Positions 5,667 through 6,971 of a DNA stretch of 64,000 nucleotides are shown here, piece by piece. Made by a program: the position numbers and the translations under genes. This DNA is from Murdochiella massiliensis (GTDB lineage: Bacteria; Bacillota; Clostridia; Tissierellales; Peptoniphilaceae), in assembly GCF_900059565.1 (NCBI RefSeq), contig NZ_FIZW01000002.1:1-64000 (forward strand). Direction: 5' to 3'. The notes under the pieces are model-generated. The model saw only the letters and a program-made list of their open reading frames with translations, had not been told where the DNA came from and did no database searches. Position 1 is the stretch's first letter. Each line of letters opens with the position of its first letter.

Positions 5667-5739
<73 letters not shown>

Positions 5740-5750
5740 CTGAAAGACAA

Positions 5751-5806: not shown

Positions 5807-5932
5807 ATGAGTCATAAGTCCGTGAGAAAAAATATCACCATTCCTGCATGGATGGATGAAGAAGCAAAAAAGAAAAAAATTAACTTTTCGCAGGTTATGC
5901 AAGATGCACTTAGAGAGATTCTGAGCGCGTAG
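5807..5932 (+). pseudogene. Remnant of a HicB-type antitoxin (C-terminal part only)
   Basis: An open frame of 41 codons reads RKNITIPAWMDEEA, then KINFSQVMQDALREIL. This is the C-terminal ribbon-helix-helix segment of HicB-family antitoxins of type II toxin-antitoxin systems. Complete HicB proteins are about 110-140 residues with an N-terminal HicB fold, which is missing: the tRNA-Ala terminator lies immediately upstream. There is no good ribosome-binding site before ATG 5807, and no HicA toxin is visible beside it. I call it a truncated remnant. A stand-alone short ribbon-helix-helix DNA-binding peptide is a less likely alternative. Confidence 0.6.
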
Positions 5933-6053
5933 AGCATAGGCGCGAATGCGATAAACATCGAAGCGGAAAAACTCAAAAAAATTATCGTTTTCCTGTTTAG
6001 GGAATCCTTTTCCGGGTACTATCAGAATACCAGAAAAGAAGGAGGTGAGACCC

Positions 6054-6140
6054 TTGGGCACAGAACACTCTTTCTTGAGGGAATCACCGGATTCCCTCAA
6101 GACGACGACAAGCGATTCAGACGCGCTGCACGAAAGATAA
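6054..6140 (+). CDS. Possible 28-codon peptide with an ideal ribosome-binding site
   Basis: AAGGAGGTGA (6039-6048), a perfect match to the anti-Shine-Dalgarno sequence, is followed at good spacing by TTG 6054 and 28 codons ending at TAA 6138. The peptide (MGTEHSFLRE..., Ser/Thr/Asp-rich) is not recognised. A 13-bp hairpin lies within the frame, so the purine stretch may instead belong to an RNA structure. Translation is speculative. Confidence 0.25.
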   Translation: MGTEHSFLRESPDSLKTTTSDSDALHER

Positions 6141-6331
6141 ACCTGCGGGTTTAGTGTAAACGACTTTCCGTTATCGGAATGCGTGCTTGCGAAAGAAAAC
6201 GTTGGGCAAAGGAATGGGTTGGTCGCGTATGGCGTAGCTCAGGCAGGGGCCTGTTGAGATAGAATTTCACTGGTCGTTCCTCGCCGGACGGGTTCTTCAC
6301 AAGAAAGAATCGTAACAAACGAATAGTCGGT

Positions 6332-6368
6332 GGGCGCCTTCCGTCGGAGAAGGCGCCCTTGTTTTTTC
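6332..6368 (+). terminator. Strong intrinsic terminator before cyclophilin
   Basis: GGGCGCCTTC (6332-6341) pairs perfectly with GAAGGCGCCC (6349-6358) over a 7-nt loop, followed by TTGTTTTTT. It shows that a transcript enters from upstream although no complete gene is present there. Confidence 0.9.
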
Positions 6369-6455: not shown

Positions 6456-6971
6456 ATGAAAAATCCGATTGTAACCTTTACATTGCCGCAAGGCGAGATT
6501 CAAGCGGAACTGTATCCGGAAATTGCACCCAATACGGTCAACAACTTCATTTCCCTGGTGCAAAAAGGCTTTTATGATGGCCTGATTTTTCACCGTGTTA
6601 TTCCGCAATTTATGATTCAAGGCGGGGATCCGGAAGGCACGGGCATGGGCGGCCCAGGTTATACTATCGCAGGAGAATTTGCGCATAATGGCTTTGCTAA
6701 CGCACTTAAACATGAGGCGGGCGTACTCTCGATGGCGCGCAGCATGGATCCCGATTCGGCGGGAAGCCAATTTTTTATCATGCACAAAAACGCACCGCAC
6801 TTGGATGGGGAATATGCCGCCTTTGGTAAGGTCATCGAAGGCATGGATGTGGTTGACGCCATTGCAAACGTCAAGACCGGTTGGGGAGACCGTCCGAAAG
6901 AAGATGTCGTGATGACGAAAGTGACGGTGGAAACGTTCGGAGAAAACTATCCGGAACCGGAGAAACAATAG
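6456..6971 (+). CDS. ppiB: Peptidyl-prolyl cis-trans isomerase, cyclophilin type
   Basis: A cytoplasmic cyclophilin of 171 residues that isomerises Xaa-Pro bonds during protein folding. The catalytic signature is complete: [15 protein letters not shown] (catalytic Arg), then GSQFFI and [19 protein letters not shown]. There is no signal peptide. The start follows AAGGAGG at ideal spacing. It stands alone between two terminators and is probably transcribed singly; the AT-rich stretch just upstream contains a weak TATACT (-10) about 60 bases before the start. Confidence 0.95.

Follow-up and report, generated by a model that had tools for sequence, protein, structure and literature searches.

In the leaders of Firmicutes that combine an upstream ORF with an attenuator, a short ORF with a strong Shine-Dalgarno (SD) sequence and a set of alternative folds are followed by a terminator before the gene, the upstream ORF plus terminator being the usual anatomy of attenuation leaders. 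The unit described here, which lies upstream of the cyclophilin gene ppiB in Murdochiella massiliensis, shares this layout, but an antiterminator was not found in it and its spacer to ppiB is unconserved. Dual-function small RNAs offer a second comparison. SR1 of Bacillus subtilis is a sigma-A-dependent dual-function small RNA of 205 nt that carries the 39-aa ORF SR1P (PMC8501984). The Murdochiella RNA is likened to SR1 by architecture, as a terminator-ended small RNA with a short ORF and its own promoter (here putative), and differs from it in length (~340 nt) and in the SigB-like character of that promoter. VcdRP of Vibrio cholerae, an unrelated host, is a dual-function RNA that joins an RNA function to a 29-aa peptide (PMC8672173), nearly the same size as the 28 codons of the present ORF. 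A search of the literature available found no small-RNA work on Murdochiella.

The sequence-only reading that preceded this analysis had recognized no known RNA class in the stretch, and a covariance search against Rfam agrees, returning no family at gathering score and nothing of interest at E<=10, including among the Firmicutes RNAs of similar core size (6S, raiA, RNase P, tmRNA, and T-box). Two other RNA loci were observed. A T-box leader (110.8 bits) lies at L149:17054-17279 on the minus strand, and a weak 6S-like match (33 bits, below the cut-off) that is common to all five genus members lies at G000:C2:241140-241256, also on the minus strand, and is possibly a divergent 6S RNA. A 6S identity for the stretch itself was rejected, as the weak 6S-like locus sits elsewhere in the genome.

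Locus, distribution and conservation of the unit

The stretch examined (6029-6368) is located near the start of contig C2 of the 1.64-Mb M. massiliensis genome; coordinates refer to the window, the whole 64,000 nt of DNA that was analysed. The conserved unit begins before 6029, and its start was set at ~5979 because of a conserved promoter-like block upstream. The features of the locus, including those predicted, are as follows:

5667-5740: tRNA-Ala, left of the ribbon-helix-helix fragment, with the RNA unit beyond
5809-5931: ribbon-helix-helix fragment of 41 aa, MSHKSVRKNITIPAWMDEEAKKKKINFSQVMQDALREILSA, CcdA-like, below cut-off
5979-6026, + strand: conserved promoter-like block with SigB-type hexamers GTTTAG (5995-6000) and GGGTAC (6014-6019), spacer 13
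6026-6366, + strand: presumed transcript of ~340 nt, from the putative start to the T-run of the terminator
6039-6048, + strand: perfect 10-nt SD, AAGGAGGTGA, invariant in four genomes
6054-6140, + strand: ORF of 28 codons with a TTG start, MGTEHSFLRESPDSLKTTTSDSDALHER, and TAA at 6138
6073-6085/6090-6102, + strand: perfect 13-bp hairpin inside the ORF, arms nearly unchanged in four genomes
6112-6313, + strand: structured core closed by P1 (6112-6118/6307-6313)
6122-6185, + strand: P2 arm, stem 6122-6126/6181-6185, hairpins 6139-6152 and 6166-6179
6186-6303, + strand: P3 arm, stem 6186-6196/6292-6303, hairpins 6225-6235, 6240-6253, and 6255-6269
6332-6366, + strand: intrinsic terminator, stem 6332-6358 followed by a T-run
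6456-6971, + strand: ppiB, cyclophilin-type prolyl isomerase (PF00160, E 1.3e-53), the 3' neighbour of the unit in 4/4 genomes

The fragment on the left had been taken for a HicB remnant, a label that does not hold: the HicB profile was not matched, an NCBIfam search of the 41 aa found no match, and the sole Pfam match was CcdA, at 20.5 bits versus a curated cut-off of 22.4. The unit occurs in four genomes (M. massiliensis, G004, which is its nearest relative among the genomes compared and 98% identical across the locus, G001, and Levyella massiliensis), each time in the same position upstream of ppiB. To its left, M. massiliensis and G004 have the ribbon-helix-helix fragment, and G001 and Levyella have an adhesin gene. 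In G002, the fifth genus member, neither the RNA nor ppiB was seen in an assembly that is 87% complete. Searches of 130 genomes of the family for further homologues used BLASTN, a pattern for the conserved hairpin, and one covariance model each for the 5' domain and the core; all returned chance matches only, and the unit is single copy in its own genome.

Between M. massiliensis and G001, the 5' domain and the core of the RNA are 95.2% and 93.9% identical, respectively, compared with 61.5% at the four-fold degenerate sites of ppiB and 87.6% across the entire gene. The 5' domain remains 90.5% identical in Levyella, where identity at the four-fold sites of ppiB is 37.7%; the core is 54.3% identical there, with an alignment score that exceeds 300/300 shuffles. 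The conservation was also compared with that of 42 intergenic stretches aligning over at least 80 nt without codon periodicity, drawn from a 400-kb sample of two genomes in which gene calling was crude. Median identity in this set is 0.84, and the RNA piece 6101-6296 (0.959) ranks second to a stretch that reads as the rpsU gene; with rpsU set aside, the RNA is the most conserved of the likely non-coding stretches in the sample. Since identity in the RNA lies far above that of neutral (four-fold) sites, the comparison of sequences identifies the stretch as a functional element under purifying selection and contradicts decay. The stretch is kept in all four genomes, and this strong selection, together with the lack of an Rfam match, supports the earlier suggestion of an undescribed small RNA.

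Promoter-like block, short reading frame and predicted fold

The consensus reported for SigB promoters is GTTTAA-N15(+/-2)-GGGTAT (PMC9847131), with which GTTTAG-N13-GGGTAC (5995-6019) agrees at 10/12 letters. Both hexamers are invariant in the four genomes while the letters of the spacer vary, and G001 has lost an overlapping sigma-A-like TACTAT, reading TACTAA instead. Species differ in what lies to the left of the unit, which therefore most likely carries a promoter of its own. The genome codes for a sigma factor of the SigB/F/G family that scores over the cut-off; STAS and RsbW-like genes lie in front of it, behind an apparent gyrA end. At L088:748-2211, in a 1.6-Mb genome, an rsbV-rsbW-sigB-like module follows immediately after a gyrA-like gene. 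Counted genome-wide, the SigB-type motif showed no enrichment over a reversed control, and a SigB regulon based on motif counts was rejected for this reason; the remaining exact matches fall within a sugar-kinase-like coding gene and, judged by their sequence, in 16S rRNA. Because the motif is no commoner than in the control, the RNA is described here as possibly controlled by SigB.

The stretch had been described as lacking a gene, a description that the perfect SD and the TTG-initiated ORF of 28 codons contradict. All ten letters of AAGGAGGTGA match the sequence that usually complements the 3' end of 16S rRNA, and 10-mers of this type number only 3 on both strands of the 400-kb sample. The TTG start codon is conserved in the four genomes. 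The exact string AAGGAGGTGAGACCCTTG, which comprises SD, spacer, and TTG, is also present in a few unrelated genomes, in at least two of which a longer frame begins there, its start resembling that of a lipoprotein; because it opens frames in unrelated bacteria, the arrangement has the appearance of a functional start site. The predicted fold allows pairing between AAGAAGGAG (6036-6044) and CTCTTTCTT (6068-6076), which would partly sequester the SD. No protein family matched the peptide. A longer protein on either strand was rejected, as six-frame translations of the four genomes share no long frame. A 154-aa ORF antisense to the RNA was observed in G001 (L003:1458-1922, +); a 1-nt indel interrupts it in M. 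massiliensis and G004, and it is probably due to chance.

The strong terminator and the perfect 13-bp hairpin noted earlier were both confirmed, and the three-way arrangement reappears in the predicted fold as P2 enclosing two hairpins, with P1 closing a multiloop that holds P2 and P3. The 6029-6368 stretch folds better than 100/100 dinucleotide shuffles (z -3.3), a score partly owed to the hairpin and terminator (core by itself, z -2.4 to -2.8). The core of G001 differs at 14 positions and has a fold energy of -75.8, compared with -72.4 in M. massiliensis and -66.8 +/- 4.0 for random mutants with the same changes (G001 better, p 0.025-0.035). The P3 stem forms a continuous 11-bp helix in G001 where that of M. 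massiliensis carries mismatches, and one P2 pair of M. massiliensis is broken in G001. The core of Levyella is nearly equal in length (212 vs 207 nt) and is predicted to be closed by ATCAAAACC/GGTTTTGAT with a pairing probability of 0.83-0.998; a terminal helix as long as this one arises in 51/2000 shuffles, compared with 572/2000 for the P1 of M. massiliensis, the length of which is ordinary. The hairpin around GGACTTTCCG in the P2 arm is conserved in Levyella. P3 carries the conserved hairpin CAGGC-AGGG-GCCTG (6240-6253), and the preceding hairpin (6225-6235) contains two compensatory pairs in which both sides have changed. The total stability of the Levyella core is no better than that of shuffles (z -0.27). 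Compensatory support for the stems is modest: G001 keeps the fold, and Levyella is predicted to close P1 with other letters and has a terminator stem of altered sequence, but compensatory pairs are few (3/43 in the consensus fold). Given only two clearly diverged lineages for comparison, the z of -0.27 in Levyella, and the broken P2 pair, the detailed predicted fold is moderately, not strongly, supported.

Competing explanations for the unit and their implications

The explanation tentatively favored here is that the locus is an independent transcription unit of ~340 nt encoding a dual-function small RNA. Transcription would begin at ~6026 from the SigB-type promoter and end at the terminator, the structure of which persists in Levyella despite new letters and a changed spacer length, a point in favor of this reading. 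Because the ORF covers the 13-bp hairpin together with the 5' strands of P1 and P2, a translating ribosome would open all of them, so that the ORF could not be translated while the 3' domain is folded, and vice versa. Sequestration of the SD by CTCTTTCTT would let the whole RNA fold and work through its 3' domain, whereas an accessible SD would allow synthesis of the peptide. A SigB-controlled stress would be a first guess for the inducing signal. The more specific proposal, that translation of the 28 codons mechanically switches the 200-nt structured domain on and off in a genus-specific RNA, under the SigB-type stress sigma factor of an anaerobe outside Bacillus, is decidedly doubtful. Pairing with ppiB mRNA was rejected, as ppiB ranked 239/328 in a crude duplex ranking of base-pairing targets.

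The main rival is a 5' leader of ppiB, in which the upstream ORF and an alternative fold would decide the fate of the terminator at 6332-6358 and so attenuate cyclophilin expression in cis. The unit lies on the same strand as ppiB and directly upstream of it in 4/4 genomes, its short ORF and terminator fit what is generally known of leader anatomy, and the incomplete G002 assembly lacks both the RNA and ppiB. However, the spacer between terminator and ppiB is ill-conserved (71.3% identical in G001, and 40.1% identical and twice as long in Levyella), and ppiB occurs in other genera without such an RNA. The terminator of Levyella is a different G+C-rich stem, GAGCGCCGTT..AACGGCGCTC, at another spacer length, and no partner in the conserved block was seen to follow its changed letters; inspection by eye did not reveal a conserved antiterminator. 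The absence of a visible antiterminator and the unconserved spacer count mildly against a leader, which is regarded as somewhat unlikely.

An mRNA that encodes a small protein and has a stable 3' UTR, its fold having no function of its own, would account for the perfect SD, its correct spacing, and the TTG start, as well as for the conserved beginning of the ORF, the first 16 codons of which are kept in Levyella except for two replacements. These two replacements are, however, 2/4 of the differences within that conserved part, the frame diverges thereafter so that Levyella does not retain the C-terminal portion, and conservation of the core beyond the stop codon is close to that of the 5' domain (0.939 vs 0.952, M. 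massiliensis versus G001), leaving this explanation unlikely. The unconserved C-terminal part and the lack of a protein family match would instead suit a conserved non-coding RNA in which ribosomes do not initiate at the SD and TTG; this is rendered quite improbable by an SD that is perfect over 10 nt, stands at standard spacing from the start codon, shows no variation among the four genomes, and is rare in the genome. Decayed mobile DNA adjoining a toxin-antitoxin fragment, which the variable left neighbour might suggest and which had been raised earlier, is scarcely credible and was rejected, as the single-copy unit diverges at a rate well below that of neutral sites (94-95% identity versus 62% at four-fold sites in ppiB) and searches of phages, plasmids, and viral contigs gave no match.

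The unit is probably a new orphan, without an Rfam family, of a known kind, the small RNAs, and probably a dual-function one; the sequence comparisons show it to be real, under selection, and confined to Murdochiella and Levyella among the family genomes searched. If expressed, it would belong to the most strongly conserved non-coding sequence in these little-studied anaerobes, and would provide a starting point for the study of small RNAs and SigB-type regulation in the two genera. Its narrow distribution would make it an example of a young structured RNA, in which a nearly frozen 5' domain stands against a 3' domain that changes its letters quickly.
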